Assembly: GCF_000226565.1 (NCBI RefSeq)
Contig: NC_016041.1
Coordinates: 3,844,001-3,908,000, forward strand
Length of the DNA: 64,000 nt
From: Glaciecola nitratireducens FR1064
GTDB lineage: Bacteria; Pseudomonadota; Gammaproteobacteria; Enterobacterales; Alteromonadaceae
Reading direction: 5' to 3'
The notes beneath the pieces are model-generated. The model was not told where the DNA came from. It saw nothing but the letters and a program-made list of their open reading frames with translations, and did no database searches. Every line of letters begins with the position of its first letter. Within the stretch, counting starts at the first letter, position 1. Below are positions 41,553-47,320 of this stretch, one piece after another. The position numbers and the translations under genes were made by a program.

Positions 41553-41719
41553 GTCAAAAATTCAGTCACTTTGTTATTTTCTTAGTATCCGATAGGCGTT
41601 CATTACGCACATTTGTGAATCTGACATTATTTGTAACAATCATCGACACATCCCCTCTTCCGACTTCGGCACTGATGACATATAGTGTGCTTTAATAAAT
41701 AAAGAGTTGAGTGATATTC

Positions 41720-42445
41720 ATGGGACAGGAAACCTCGAAAATTCTGGTTGTTGATGACGATATGCGTTTACGTTCATTGCTAGAGCGGTATTTAGTAGAG
41801 CAGGGCTACCAAGTCCGCACAGCCGCCAACGGTGAACAAATGGACCGCTTATTGGAACGCGAAAATTTTCATTTAATGGTCTTAGACCTTATGCTTCCTG
41901 ATGAAGACGGTCTGTCTATTTGCAGACGCTTACGTCAACAAGAAAATCAAATTCCCATTATTATGCTTACTGCAAAAGGCGATGAAGTAGATCGCATTAT
42001 TGGCCTTGAAATGGGCGCTGATGACTATTTGCCAAAGCCCTTTAACCCAAGAGAGTTATTGGCTAGAGCAAAAGCTGTTTTGCGTCGTAAAACAACAGAG
42101 GCCCCAGGAGCACCCTCGCAATCCGAACAAGTTGTTTCCTTTGGTAGTTATAAACTTAATTTAGCCACCCGAGAAATGTCCGACAATGGCAAGCCCTTAA
42201 CACTCACCAGCGGTGAATTTGCAGTGTTAAAATCACTGGTCACGCACGCTCGCGAGCCACTTTCTCGCGATAAATTAATGAATTTGGCGCGTGGTAGAGA
42301 TTACAGTGCACTTGAGAGAAGCATCGACGTTCAGGTTTCTCGACTGCGCAGAATGCTAGAAGAAGACCCTGCTAACCCACGCTACATTCAGACGGTTTGG
42401 GGCTTAGGCTACGTATTTGTACCCGACGGTGCAGTAGACGCTTAA
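41720..42445 (+). CDS. ompR: osmolarity response regulator OmpR
   Basis: A 241-residue regulator (E. coli 239): a receiver domain (about 6-120) with Asp56 in LMVLDLMLP and a C-terminal winged helix (about 140-237) ending [13 protein letters not shown]. With EnvZ it controls outer-membrane porins and envelope functions. ATG 41720 is preferred to the in-frame GTG 9 nt upstream, as the protein then begins [14 protein letters not shown] like relatives. envZ follows after 5 nt. Confidence 0.97.
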
Positions 42446-42450
42446 TCCAA

Positions 42451-43746
42451 GTGAGATTTCTTCCTAAAAGCACCTTTGGCCAAACGGTCGTGTTAATAGC
42501 GGGTTTACTGCTGATCAACCAAATTGTGACTTATTTATCTGTCATTAATTATTTTATTCGTCCTAGCTATCAACAAATAAACTCACTCATTGCCACACAG
42601 GTTGAGCAGATATTTTTGCAAGGCCTGAATTCTCCTGAAAATCCGCTGCATGAAAAATTTATGGAAACCACCGGCACGCGTTTTCATACGATAGAATCAG
42701 CTATGCATGCAGGTTTGCGCGATGCGACTTACTATAAGACTTTGTCCGTTGACATCTCAAAGCAACTTGGCGGCAAAACTGATGTTAGAACCTCTGGTGG
42801 CGTGAATTACTTAATTTGGATACGTCCACCGCAAGATCCGAATATTTGGATATCTATTCCAATGCAGGGTATGGAAGAGAGCGACTTTTCGCCACTCACC
42901 ATCTACCTCATTGTTATCAGTATCTTGAGCGTCGCGGGGGGGTGGTTATTTGTGAGACGGTTAAACAGGCCACTGCAAGCGCTGCAAAAAGCAGCACGCA
43001 AAGTAGGTAAGGGACAATTTCCAGAGCCACTGCCACTTGAAGGAAGTAGTGAAATGGTGGCGGTAACCAATGCCTTCAATAAGATGTCGCAGGGTATTCA
43101 TCAACTAGAAAGTGATCGAGTACTAATGACTGCAGGGATATCACACGACCTGCGTACGCCGCTAACCCGTATTCGTTTAGCTAGTGAAATGCTGCCAGAA
43201 GACCAAGCATGGGTAAAAGACGGTATCGAGCATGATATCGAAGACATGAATGCCATCATTGACCAATTTATTGATTACGCCAGACAAGATCAGCAAGAGG
43301 CATCTGAAAACGTTGATTTGAACAACGTCATTAAAGAGTTAATTAAGGGAAGATTGCTCGAGCAGGGACACCATATTGAACTGCAACTTGCGCCGTTACC
43401 GAATGCAAAGTTACGCGTTATTGGCATTAAACGTGTATTGGATAACTTAATCGAAAATGCCTTTCGCTACGGCAGCGCCGACATCTGTATTATTACCAAA
43501 GTTGACCATCATTCAAAATCACTAATTTGTAATGTACGTGACTATGGTAAGGGCATTCCAGAATCAGAAATTCCAGTATTATTCTCACCCTTTGCACAAG
43601 GTGACAAGGCCCGCGGCTCAGTTGGCTCAGGACTCGGCCTCGCAATCACTAAACGTATCGTCGAAAGCCACGGCGGCAAAATGCTCTTCACCAACCAAGC
43701 CTCCGGCGGCCTCTCGGCCGGTTTCACCCTTCCCTACAGCACCTAA
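42451..43746 (+). CDS. envZ: sensor histidine kinase EnvZ
   Basis: A 431-residue inner-membrane kinase of OmpR (E. coli 450). Two helices (about 11-31 and 150-170) flank a periplasmic domain, followed by HAMP, the phosphoacceptor motif [15 protein letters not shown], the N box [10 protein letters not shown] and the G boxes YGKGIP and [11 protein letters not shown] at 42451 is chosen because it aligns the N-terminus ([11 protein letters not shown]) with E. coli EnvZ; a longer frame would read into ompR. It converges with the DUF808 gene, two bases away. Confidence 0.96.
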
Positions 43747-43748
43747 AA

Positions 43749-44699
43749 TTAATTAACAAGGGCCCCTTTTATTTTGCGGGCGGTGGTTAGGGTTACCAGG
43801 GTTAGCAAACCGGCTGCTATGCCAATAACGCCGTTCAAGGCAATCCCTGTAAGCGAGCCCGCTATGGTGCCAACGGTTGGGAAGACTGACACCACATCAA
43901 CTGAGTGCTCAACAAAATGATGTAAAAACGGTACGCCGTGGGCAATGATGCCGCCGCCGACAAGGAACATTGCAGCGGTGCCGACTACTGCTAGCGTTTT
44001 CATTAGAATAGGGGCGAATCTCAGTAGAGCGCGACCGGTAAAACGCTGCAGTTTATCAAAGCTTCCTGACACTGATTTACGCAGCAGATAAAGCCCCAAA
44101 TCATCAATTTTTACAATCAGTGCGACAAAGCCGTAAACACCTATCGTGAAAATAATGCTCATCAACGACAACACCGTTATTTGTGTCGTGAAAGGTTCAG
44201 CAGCAACGGTGCCTAAAATAATGACGATTATCTCAGCGCTCAGCACAAAGTCCGTGCGGATCGCGCCTTTGATTTTGTCTTTTTCGATATCGGCTAAATT
44301 AATTGAAGGGTCAGCTAAGGCTTTTAGCTTTTCTGCATGCGCTTGCTCATCTTCTTGCTTACTAACAATGAACTTGTGAAGTAACTTCTCAACGCCTTCA
44401 AAGCACAAATATAAGCCGCCGATAATCAGCAGGTACATGACCATCCATGGCGCAAAAAAGCTAATTACCAAAGCGCTAGGTACTAAAATCAACTTATTAA
44501 GAAAAGAGCCCTTCGCAACAGCCCAAACCACCGGAAGCTCGCGGTCTGCTTTCACGCCAGAAACTTGTTCTGCATTTAAGGCTAAATCGTCACCCAACAC
44601 GCCGGCTGTTTTTTTTGCCGCCACTTTTGACAAAATCGCGACGTCATCTAATACAGTCGCTATATCGTCCAATAACGTGAGTAAATTTGCAGCAGGAAT
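43749..44699 (-). CDS. DUF808 membrane protein (YedI type), apparent AUU start
   Basis: A 316-residue multi-pass membrane protein of the DUF808 family (E. coli YedI, 305). [46 protein letters not shown] and [12 protein letters not shown](V)LSAEI are conserved. The family N-terminus is M[14 protein letters not shown]; here the matching codons are ATT-CCT-GCT-GCA-AAT before LLTLLDD, with AAGGAG exactly 7 nt before the ATT. No ATG, GTG or TTG occurs at that place; the first TTG (44672) cuts off nine residues and has no ribosome site. An AUU start is therefore likely. Function of the family is unknown. Confidence 0.88.
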
Positions 44700-44832
44700 A
44701 GCCCTTCTCCTTTAGAGATAACAAGTGATTTAGAATCTTAGCAACGTACATCCATTGACACTAGAGCTTGTTGCGCTCTGCAGTTTAAAACTCCAACAGC
44801 AAAGTTCAAAGGAATCCAATACAAAACAGACC

Positions 44833-45729
44833 TTAGTGTATTTTTTGGTCAGCAACCACGTTGTCTGCATGAATATTTTCAACATCGATAGCGTCAAAAC
44901 GATATTCTTGATGGCAGAATTGGCAGTTCATCACAACCGCGCCTTCCTCTGCTACTATTTCCAGCAAATCAGCTTTTGATACGTTTTGTAAGGCAATTGC
45001 GCTGCGCTCTTTTGAACAGTCACATTTAAACGTTACTGGCTGAGCGTCGAACAAACGAATTTTTTCTTCGTGATACAAACGGTGCAAGACTTCTGCCGTT
45101 GGTAAACTAAATAATTCTTCATTTTTCAGCGTATTCATCAAGTGACCCAAATGGTCAAAATCAGGATTTTCATGAGACTGAGAAGTTTCACTATTTTCAG
45201 GCACGACTTGCAGTAACATACCACCAGCAACATTGCTAGTGTTGTCACGCTGAGTGCGCAAACTCACTTTTGTCAGCAATTGCTCTGACTGTAAAAAATA
45301 GTCTTCTAAGCATTCGGCTAAAGTAGGTTTGTCTAGCGCGACAATACCTTGATAACGTTCACCGTCTTTCGGGGCGAGTGTAATAGCCAAATAACCTTTT
45401 CTAAACAACTCAGAAAAACTAGACGGTAATTTAAATTCTTCGTTCCATCTTGCAACACCACGCAGTTTTTGATCGTGCGTGCCATTAATTACGACGTATT
45501 TTACCAAGCCTTCGCTTTGAATTTGCAGCGACACTTCACCTTCAAATTTTAGCGTAGCGGTTAACAAGCATGCTGCCACCATCAATTCGCCCAGCAAATC
45601 TTGAATAATAGGAGGGTAATCATATGAGTCCAAAATGCCCTGATAGCTATCATGCAATTTAACGACTTCCCCGCGAACATTGCGGTCTTCAAATAAAAAT
45701 CTATCTAATTGGTCTTTCTCAACGGTCAT
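44833..45729 (-). CDS. hslO: redox-regulated chaperone Hsp33 (HslO)
   Basis: A 298-residue cytoplasmic holdase activated by oxidation and unfolding. The N-terminal part has MTVEKDQLDRFLFEDRNVRG; the C-terminal zinc site is CDCSKERSA (about 237-239) and CQFCHQEY (about 270-273), the four redox Cys in CxC and CxxC order. It lies 27 nt after hslR, as in other gamma-proteobacteria. Confidence 0.98.
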   Translation of the reverse strand: MTVEKDQLDRFLFEDRNVRGEVVKLHDSYQGILDSYDYPPIIQDLLGELMVAACLLTATLKFEGEVSLQIQSEGLVKYVVINGTHDQKLRGVARWNEEFKLPSSFSELFRKGYLAITLAPKDGERYQGIVALDKPTLAECLEDYFLQSEQLLTKVSLRTQRDNTSNVAGGMLLQVVPENSETSQSHENPDFDHLGHLMNTLKNEELFSLPTAEVLHRLYHEEKIRLFDAQPVTFKCDCSKERSAIALQNVSKADLLEIVAEEGAVVMNCQFCHQEYRFDAIDVENIHADNVVADQKIH

Positions 45730-45756
45730 AAATCTCTTCTTTAACTAGTAAAACAT

Positions 45757-46209
45757 CTATTGATGCTTAAATTGAATAATTTGTCGGCGCTGTTTCTTAT
45801 CAGGCCTGCCGTCTGGTCTTGGGCTATGAAAAATACTTAATTTTCTGGCCGCTGCATTTTTTTCACGAAGTGCAAGGCTCTCACTTGTCTCTTCATACAG
45901 AAGTTGTGCTAATTGGGCGCTTCTACGTTGCCCAATAACGTCTTTGACGACTACCGTTTTTTGGTCAAAGCCTGCTGGTACTTGAATTATTGCATCAAGC
46001 TCAACAACTTTGCTCGGTTTACAACGCTGCTTATTATACTGAACCTTACCCGATTGGACCAATTCTCTAGCAATGGCACGCGTTTTACAGAAGCGAGCAG
46101 CCCAAAGCCACTTATCAATTCGCACATCGTTTGCGTCGTGCTCGGTCTTACCCGCTTTACTTTGCCCAGCACTTTTTTTATTCGTATTTGCACTTTTTTG
46201 TTTTTTCAT
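45757..46209 (-). CDS. hslR: heat-shock protein Hsp15 (HslR), S4 RNA-binding
   Basis: A 150-residue S4-domain protein (E. coli 133) that binds 50S subunits carrying stalled nascent chains. The S4 domain starts VRIDKWLWAARFCKTRAIARELV (about residues 30-52). A Lys/Ser-rich N-terminal tail of about 27 residues and a basic C-terminus flank it. It forms an operon with hslO. No sigma-32 promoter was clearly recognised in the 100 bp shared with gspC. Confidence 0.96.
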   Translation of the reverse strand: MKKQKSANTNKKSAGQSKAGKTEHDANDVRIDKWLWAARFCKTRAIARELVQSGKVQYNKQRCKPSKVVELDAIIQVPAGFDQKTVVVKDVIGQRRSAQLAQLLYEETSESLALREKNAAARKLSIFHSPRPDGRPDKKQRRQIIQFKHQ

Positions 46210-46354
46210 TGTCTTTTGTTTACAACTTAACTTTTAGAATTGCGCCGTTTAATTATAAAAATCGTATCACTTATGCTCTTTGCTATTGTCCACACCGTAA
46301 TGACTAGATATGATGGGTGCCGATGAAGTTCATAATAATAATATTACTGAGAAA

Positions 46355-47320
46355 ATGACAGTCACCAATTTATCATTGCAACCCGCGGCGAGAATGTATA
46401 GGCAGCACCAAAACAAAATCATCATGTTGATTGTTGTGTTGCTCTCGCTGTATCTCATTGCATTTGCAGCTAAGCTTACGTGGCAAATTATTCCTCAGCC
46501 TGAAACCTTGCTATCTAGTTCATTTAACAACTCTAACACGCAAGCGTCTAAGTCAACATCTCGTGTAGACATATCGCCCCTCATCAAACTCAATTTATTT
46601 GGCAACCCGGAAGCAAAACCCCTGACCACCGTCAAAGCTGAGGTTACCGACGCACCCGAAACCAAATTGAATCTCACGCTAACAGGCGTTGTTTCAAGCG
46701 CTGATCCTAAAGTGGGGGCAGCCATTGTAGAAAACAATGGGAAACAGAATACTTATGGCGTAGGTGATAAAATAGACGGAACTAATGTAACCTTGGATGA
46801 ACTGTACATAGACCGTGTAATTATTAAAAATAGCCTCACCCGCGAAACTTTGATGCTAGATGGCATTGATTACGATGAAGCGAATCAAACGCGCAAACAA
46901 GAAGCACGACAGCTAACACCACAATATAATTCACCGCAAGCGGCCGACGAATATAAATTGTCTGAAAATGATCCAGAGTTCGATCCCGAGGAAGCATCAG
47001 ACAGCGCTAGGGAGATGCGCGAACAAATTAGTCAATCCCCAACTAGCTTTACGGATTTCATTGCGATTAAACCGCACACTTCCAATGGGCAGTTGGTTGG
47101 TTATCAAGTTTCACCAGGCAAACAGCCGGACTTTTTTCGTGATGTCGGATTGCGCTCTGGTGACATTGTTACCCAAATAAACGGATTAGATTTATCTGAT
47201 CCAGCACAGTCATTAGAAGCAATAAACGTTCTACGAGAAGCACAGTCTTTGCAATTGGAAGTGCTAAGGGGCGATGAGGCTTTGTCATTAGATATCGACA
47301 TTCCGTCGTCTGAAGAATAA
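46355..47320 (+). CDS. gspC: type II secretion protein GspC
   Basis: A 321-residue inner-membrane component linking the assembly platform to the secretin. One membrane helix (about 22-42), a homology region (about 75-165, ATKLNLTLTGVVSS-type segment) and a C-terminal PDZ domain (about 230-315, YQVSPGKQPDFFRDVGLRSG). The ATG at 46355 is preferred to one 45 nt upstream because relatives begin close to NLSLQPAARMYRQ. It is first in the gspC-N operon, diverging from hslR. Confidence 0.93.
   Translation: MTVTNLSLQPAARMYRQHQNKIIMLIVVLLSLYLIAFAAKLTWQIIPQPETLLSSSFNNSNTQASKSTSRVDISPLIKLNLFGNPEAKPLTTVKAEVTDAPETKLNLTLTGVVSSADPKVGAAIVENNGKQNTYGVGDKIDGTNVTLDELYIDRVIIKNSLTRETLMLDGIDYDEANQTRKQEARQLTPQYNSPQAADEYKLSENDPEFDPEEASDSAREMREQISQSPTSFTDFIAIKPHTSNGQLVGYQVSPGKQPDFFRDVGLRSGDIVTQINGLDLSDPAQSLEAINVLREAQSLQLEVLRGDEALSLDIDIPSSEE

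Follow-up and report, generated by a model that had tools for sequence, protein, structure and literature searches.

A DUF808 gene of Glaciecola nitratireducens FR1064 with an apparent AUU start codon shared, as AUC, by sister species

The DUF808 gene of Glaciecola nitratireducens FR1064, which encodes a membrane protein, appears to be translated from an AUU codon at position 44699 of the window, the whole 64,000-nucleotide stretch of contig NC_016041.1 that was analysed. We put at about 0.87 the probability that this AUU is the start of DUF808, served by a strong AAGGAG Shine-Dalgarno (SD) sequence, inherited as a non-AUG start and subject to weak expression under the restraint of IF3. The sequence itself, the position of the codon, its conservation, the coding constraint on codons 2-9 and the SD are established directly.

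Natural AUU and AUC starts are almost absent from the comparative survey of Belinky et al. (2017), the available text of which gives switches to AUU at one of 61,358 ancestral AUG starts and one of 5,080 GUG starts (PMC5622118). The AUC, AUU and AUG alleles of DUF808 among sister species provide a naturally occurring set in which start-codon fidelity can be studied outside infC, and gene calling restricted to NTG codons would truncate or extend proteins such as this one. A search of the open-licence literature found no report on DUF808 start codons.

Anatomy of the DUF808 start site

The features of the locus are collected in Table 1. The minus-strand frame is TAA AGG AGA AGG GCT ATT CCT GCT GCA AAT TTA CTC ACG TTA TTG GAC, with the stop codon five codons 5' of the ATT. 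Between the two there is no in-frame ATG, GTG, TTG, CTG, ATA, ATC or second ATT, and past the ATT the next NTG (ATG, GTG or TTG) is codon 10. The first-pass annotation had stated that no ATG, GTG or TTG was available at this position and that TTG 44672, which lacks a ribosome site, was the first alternative; both statements agree with the frame and with the predicted duplexes with the anti-SD, -8.7 kcal/mol for the ATT versus +2.2 kcal/mol for the TTG. The AAGGAG that it had placed 7 nt before the ATT is read directly at 44712-44707, and the strength of this SD lies in the top 2.3% of 176 DUF808 loci.

Table 1. Features of the DUF808 locus in the window; G001, G008, G010, G011 and G012 are congeneric genomes (species)
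Feature	Coordinates	Strand	Remarks
DUF808 (PF05661) CDS from ATT	43749..44699	minus	316 sense codons plus stop TAA 43751-43749
ATT, proposed start codon	44697..44699	minus	ATC in G010, G008, G001 and G012; ATG in G011
Shine-Dalgarno (SD) AAGGAG	44707..44712	minus	7-nt spacer to ATT; predicted anti-SD duplex -8.7 kcal/mol
In-frame stop TAA	44712..44714	minus	no upstream in-frame start possible in FR1064
TTG, codon 10, first canonical start-type codon	44670..44672	minus	no SD (+2.2 kcal/mol); not conserved
hslO (Hsp33, PF01430), upstream gene	44833..45729	minus	adjoins DUF808 also in G010, G011 and G008

The ATT occupies the start column of the aligned DUF808 family, where 217 other distinct loci, all but G011 from outside the genus, carry ATG, GTG or TTG; the earlier claim that the family N-terminus fits ATT 44699 is thereby confirmed. 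The genome profile search matched the protein to PF05661 with an E value of 6.5e-109. Read from the ATT the protein scores 364.5 bits over profile positions 2-300 of 302, versus 356.3 bits from the TTG (gathering cut-off 28.4). Against the NCBIfam equivalog NF007476 (PRK10062.1) the score of 355.3 bits falls below the curated cut-off of 475, so that the protein is related but the equivalog is not called. The closest named relatives, among the best 80 of at least 453 confirmed loci, belong to Paraglaciecola and Aliiglaciecola.

An AlphaFold2 model of the protein has a mean pLDDT of 74, the first five 10-residue blocks averaging 42-48. The first-pass annotation held that a TTG start would truncate a conserved helix; a helix is indeed predicted at residues 3-45, but at low confidence. 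A Foldseek search of the model against the PDB gave no match at E <= 0.001 (best 0.73), and the search for a solved relative by sequence returned none, its single match being at chance level (E 0.55).

Start codons in the genus and across the family

The gene is present in six of the 13 genomes of the genus, FR1064 counted, and at the same aligned position five of the six use AUU or AUC (Table 1). Protein identity to FR1064 is 87% in G010, 84% in G011, 82% in G008, 65% in G001 and 64% in G012. For the AUU initiation proposed in the first pass, which the anatomy of the site supports, these relatives are decisive: since four sister species have ATC, the ATT of FR1064 is real and inherited, not a sequencing mistake. 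Initiation at AUU is also supported because codons 2-9 show synonymous changes only in the two close pairs and no alternative start is conserved. Between FR1064 and G010 these eight codons comprise two identical and six synonymous, and between G001 and G012 four identical and four synonymous, with no nonsynonymous change in either pair; the remaining 13 pairs show 1-4 nonsynonymous changes. AGGAG is found in the SD of FR1064, G010, G011, G008 and G001, and the weaker GAGGA in G012, whose SD before the ATC is average (38% of 176 loci have an equal or stronger one).

Start codons were read at 230 DUF808 loci, reduced to 222 distinct ones by removal of identical stretches, and an NTG was accepted within one codon of the aligned position. 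The distinct loci have 167 ATG (one of them that of G011), 35 GTG, 15 TTG, four ATC and one ATT. Outside the genus all 216 distinct starts are ATG, GTG or TTG, and all five AUH starts lie inside it. The gene was found in 207 of 395 genomes of the bacterial family, and starts were read in 150 of the 207 (six within the genus, 30 at loci already listed and 114 retrieved separately); these family genomes, genus included, contribute 148 distinct loci with 102 ATG, 30 GTG, 11 TTG, four ATC and one ATT. The survey also takes in 80 named loci, the best 80 of at least 453 confirmed. Thirty loci missed by the motif searches and placed by tblastn have ATG (29) or GTG (1).

Mean SD duplex energies are -4.7 kcal/mol for ATG, -6.2 for GTG, -6.2 for TTG and -7.6 for ATC loci, with -8.7 for the single ATT. 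The SD is stronger before AUH than before ATG (Mann-Whitney p 0.0008, 5 versus 167, rows not independent), and because the survey rows are related such p values are only a guide. GTG and TTG starts are themselves frequent in DUF808, accounting for 50 of the 222 distinct loci (35 GTG, 15 TTG) with SDs stronger than those of ATG genes, and weak starts may be favoured across the DUF808 family at large. GUG and UUG starts accompany stronger SDs in the available part of the comparative data as well (PMC5622118), the same trend as among DUF808 loci.

In a tree of 35 DUF808 proteins the genus genes form one clade, ((G001, G012), (G008, (G011, (FR1064, G010)))). This clade was supported at 98/96 in the first tree, where L015, L019 and L020, all from outside the genus, had very long inner branches, apparently because of wrong reading frames. 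A repeat tree with frames set by tblastn gave 100/94 and an identical topology within the genus. In the repeat tree the fork uniting G011 with FR1064 and G010 received 99/96 and the FR1064-G010 pair 99/88, so that G011, with its ATG, is nested inside G008, with its ATC. A species tree built on pcnB and infC matches this save for one fork, at which FR1064 joins G011 before G010 (support 80), and the count of start-codon changes is the same on either tree. Because the six genus genes form a single clade, one old change to AUC is the simplest history by parsimony judged by eye: a gain of AUC in the genus ancestor, AUU in FR1064 and reversion to AUG in G011.

The most serious alternative, which we rate at nearly an even chance, accepts that AUU and AUC are used and holds that the third base has merely drifted, the strong SD making AUG dispensable and regulation by IF3 being irrelevant to the cell. 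The fourfold sites have reached saturation: 61-78% of them differ in pairwise comparisons, where base frequencies lead one to expect about 74% at random. Of the 69 fourfold columns, 43 show G in no more than one of the six genes, and a neutral third base would thus be expected to yield the single G seen among the six starts. The third base of the infC start, in contrast to that of DUF808, is T in 13 of 13 genus genomes. Against drift, G is kept at the third base in all 216 distinct DUF808 starts outside the genus, and neutrality would therefore be peculiar to this genus. Three AUH starts measured in Staphylococcus aureus reached, in poor medium, about 10% of what AUG yields, and one of the three up to 30% in rich medium (PMC13009471). 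By the fourfold-site test, AUH in the DUF808 genes of the genus has persisted for long, while selection for it is not demonstrated; what stands out is that this genus leaves the third base free in the first place.

The surroundings of the gene differ within the genus. DUF808 lies between a histidine-kinase gene (HAMP, HisKA and HATPase domains) and hslO in FR1064, G011 and G008, and it adjoins hslO in G010. In G001 and G012 it is found elsewhere, its neighbours being the ATPase gene of an ABC transporter and a conserved gene that by eye resembles an M16 peptidase, a 70-residue piece of which had no Pfam match; hslO was not found in the examined flanks of these two. Since the site differs in G001 and G012, the non-AUG start is independent of the hslO context. 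The patchy presence of DUF808 (six of 13 genomes) and its two locations, at the histidine kinase and hslO or beside the ABC ATPase gene, suggest loss and relocation within the genus. In FR1064 a response regulator/histidine kinase pair (by Pfam; 41711-43746) is convergent with DUF808, the 3' ends of kinase and DUF808 (43746 and 43749) being 2 nt apart. A promoter and terminator scan of 43700-46400 listed no promoter-like or terminator-like site between hslO and DUF808, and single-sequence 63-nt folds of the start-region mRNA were weak and dissimilar (-5.7 to -10.5 kcal/mol), with no shared fold evident.

The clean AUH cases are FR1064, G008 and G001, which lack a canonical codon upstream and have their first downstream NTG at codon 10, 20 and 22, respectively. 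G010 and G012 each have an imperfect canonical alternative upstream, and the evidence from these two species is accordingly weaker. That they truly start there, with AUH initiation limited to the three clean cases, is unlikely. Both codons do exist in frame: an ATG two codons 5' of the ATC in G010, one base past GGAG (-3.1 kcal/mol), and a TTG 21 codons 5' of the ATC in G012, with a moderate SD (-5.1 kcal/mol). However, one base is close for normal use of an SD, and seven of the 13 genus genomes also have an ATG at -2 relative to the infC ATT, which the other six lack, so that it is not needed there. The TTG of G012 would add 21 residues, and in G001, its closest relative here, a stop closes the frame eight codons upstream.

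Initiation at the AUU or AUC is also to be weighed against a canonical start at TTG 44672, with the nine preceding codons as an untranslated leader, to which we give very little credence. This TTG is the first ATG, GTG or TTG of the frame, and annotation programs are for that reason likely to choose it. Besides having no SD (Table 1), however, it is replaced by CTC in G008 and by TTA in G001 and G012, where the first downstream NTG comes only at codon 20, 22 and 16, respectively, and codons 2-9 evolve as coding sequence in both close pairs. A start at the TTG would also drop leucines 6, 7 and 9, which are invariant in four aligned proteins, positions 6 and 9 being nearly invariant in 35. The synonymous-only changes in codons 2-9, together with purifying selection on the whole gene (116 identical, 154 synonymous and 42 nonsynonymous codons between FR1064 and G010), tell against both a start at the TTG and a pseudogene. 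A sequencing error, or a pseudogene whose true or former start was ATG, could appeal to the ATG of G011, the kind of relative that the first-pass annotation had named as its refuting case, but is already refuted for the clade: G011 is nested among AUC and AUU relatives, the gene is intact, and an error, ruled out by the ATC of four other genomes, would require a wrong third base in five separate assemblies.

Near-cognate codons, initiation and IF3

Near-cognate starts were also sought elsewhere in FR1064, in 464 kb (the window and 20 stretches of 20 kb, about 11% of the genome) from which a minimum length of 90 codons and a codon-usage score selected 283 ORFs; with a strong SD set at <= -6.5, the scan misses short genes and weak-SD cases. 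DUF808 was the sole ATT or ATC with a strong SD before the first NTG of its frame, and a general relaxation of start choice was not seen in these 464 kb and 283 ORFs. There were 201 near-cognate codons before the first NTG (79 ATT, 28 ATC, 72 ATA and 22 CTG), of which four (2.0%) had a strong SD versus 33 of 1791 other codons (1.8%). The other three cases, one ATA and two CTG, precede the first NTG by 1-5 codons, and that NTG is probably the start there; the best NTG SD at these three ORFs is -4.2, -9.3 and -7.9, and that at DUF808 is 0.3. Because near-cognate codons are not enriched for an SD and a strong SD is not rare, it is the family-start position and the conservation that carry the DUF808 case.

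The most likely course is that DUF808 is weakly translated from the AUU, aided by its SD and restrained by IF3; initiation at the ATT in the cell, the weak expression and the control by IF3 are all proposed by analogy with characterised genes. The fMet-tRNA, mispaired at the third base, would initiate on AUU 44699, where the strong and well-spaced AAGGAG would hold the 30S subunit. IF3 would be expected to destabilise this complex, as it does for other AUH starts, and DUF808 output should then reach only part of what an AUG would give and increase as IF3 activity declines. Destabilisation by IF3 of 30S complexes on non-NTG codons is described in the available text of two reports (PMC5472188, PMC13009471), in which infC (AUU), sigR (GUC) and the AUH genes of S. 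aureus combine strong SDs with a start codon that limits output. The first-pass statement that AUU translation depends on IF3 would be better put as expected repression by IF3, as for infC and sigR in the former report (PMC5472188).

If the control by IF3 is true, a membrane protein would join the very short list of IF3-governed genes, and there would be a first hint of the conditions that call for DUF808. The cysteine of a PPVC motif, which we take to be Cys65 of E. coli IF3, is kept in the IF3 of all 13 genus genomes. IF3 Cys65 is cited as oxidised under hypochlorite, and the same source, in its available part, reports that sigR translation has so far not been seen to rise during oxidative stress (PMC5472188); a redox link from the IF3 cysteine to DUF808 is speculation only. 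A more specific scenario appears decidedly improbable to us: an IF3-sensing switch would have been kept while silent sites became saturated, AUC and AUU being interchangeably weak, and DUF808 would be made mainly when IF3 is low or inactivated (for example, by oxidation of the PPVC cysteine), the adjacency to hslR-hslO in four species providing a tie to heat or redox stress.

Comparison with known non-canonical starts

DUF808 adds one gene to the small known class with non-canonical starts, the mechanism itself being already known. In FR1064 there is no usable NTG at the conserved protein start, and the SD is strong with 7-nt spacing. The first-pass annotation was right that AUU starts are very rare, but infC is not the sole known case: pcnB and cvfC1 (AUU), ccpN and citZ (AUA) and sigR (GUC) have been published (PMC4245954, PMC13009471, PMC5472188, each in its available part). 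In the same partial sources infC itself has AUC in Streptomyces (PMC5472188) and AUA in S. aureus (PMC13009471).

Within the genus, infC has ATT in 13 of 13 genomes, with an SD of -9.3 to -9.5 kcal/mol in ten and -6.5 in three. The infC gene encodes IF3, starts with AUU in E. coli and is autoregulated. It is like DUF808 in its AUU start, its strong SD and its conservation among relatives. Unlike DUF808, it encodes the discriminating factor itself, so that the AUU closes a feedback loop, and its third base is invariant in the genus, whereas that of DUF808 varies. At seven of the 13 infC loci (L120, L122-L126 and L128) an in-frame ATG lies two codons 5' of the ATT, 1-3 bases past the SD, e.g. 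GGAGGAAATGCAAATT; being absent in the other six, this ATG is not a conserved start and could mislead annotation.

The pcnB gene encodes poly(A) polymerase, unlike DUF808. Its expression is reportedly limited translationally by the start codon, as the title of Binns and Masters (2002) has it. At the pcnB loci of the genus (L131-L143) an in-frame ATG is among the first post-stop codons in 12 of 13 genomes; in G001 (L143) there is no in-frame ATG within the 45 codons inspected, and its start may therefore be GTG, TTG or non-canonical, to judge by these codons. E. coli pcnB is like DUF808 in having an AUU start in a gammaproteobacterium (PMC4245954, available part).

The remaining parallels come from Gram-positive bacteria and are drawn from the accessible sections of two papers. 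Streptomyces sigR resembles DUF808 in a genus-wide non-canonical start, an exchange of C and T at its third base and a strong ribosome-binding site: 32 of 34 sequences have GTC and two GTT, the ribosome-binding site is extensive, and those sections give no sign of such a start in other actinobacterial genera (PMC5472188). It differs in that its repression by IF3 was found by experiment, its codon is GUC rather than AUC, and it is a regulator of known function (PMC5472188). The S. aureus genes cvfC1 (AUU), ccpN and citZ (AUA) share the AUH start with DUF808, and cvfC1 and ccpN also share the strong SD and the conservation across species; the starts of these two were also mapped by Ribo-Ret, while the AUA of citZ occurs only in the NCTC 8325 lineage (PMC13009471). 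Unlike DUF808, these genes are Gram-positive and their output was measured with reporters, which in poor medium gave about 10% of the AUG value (PMC13009471).
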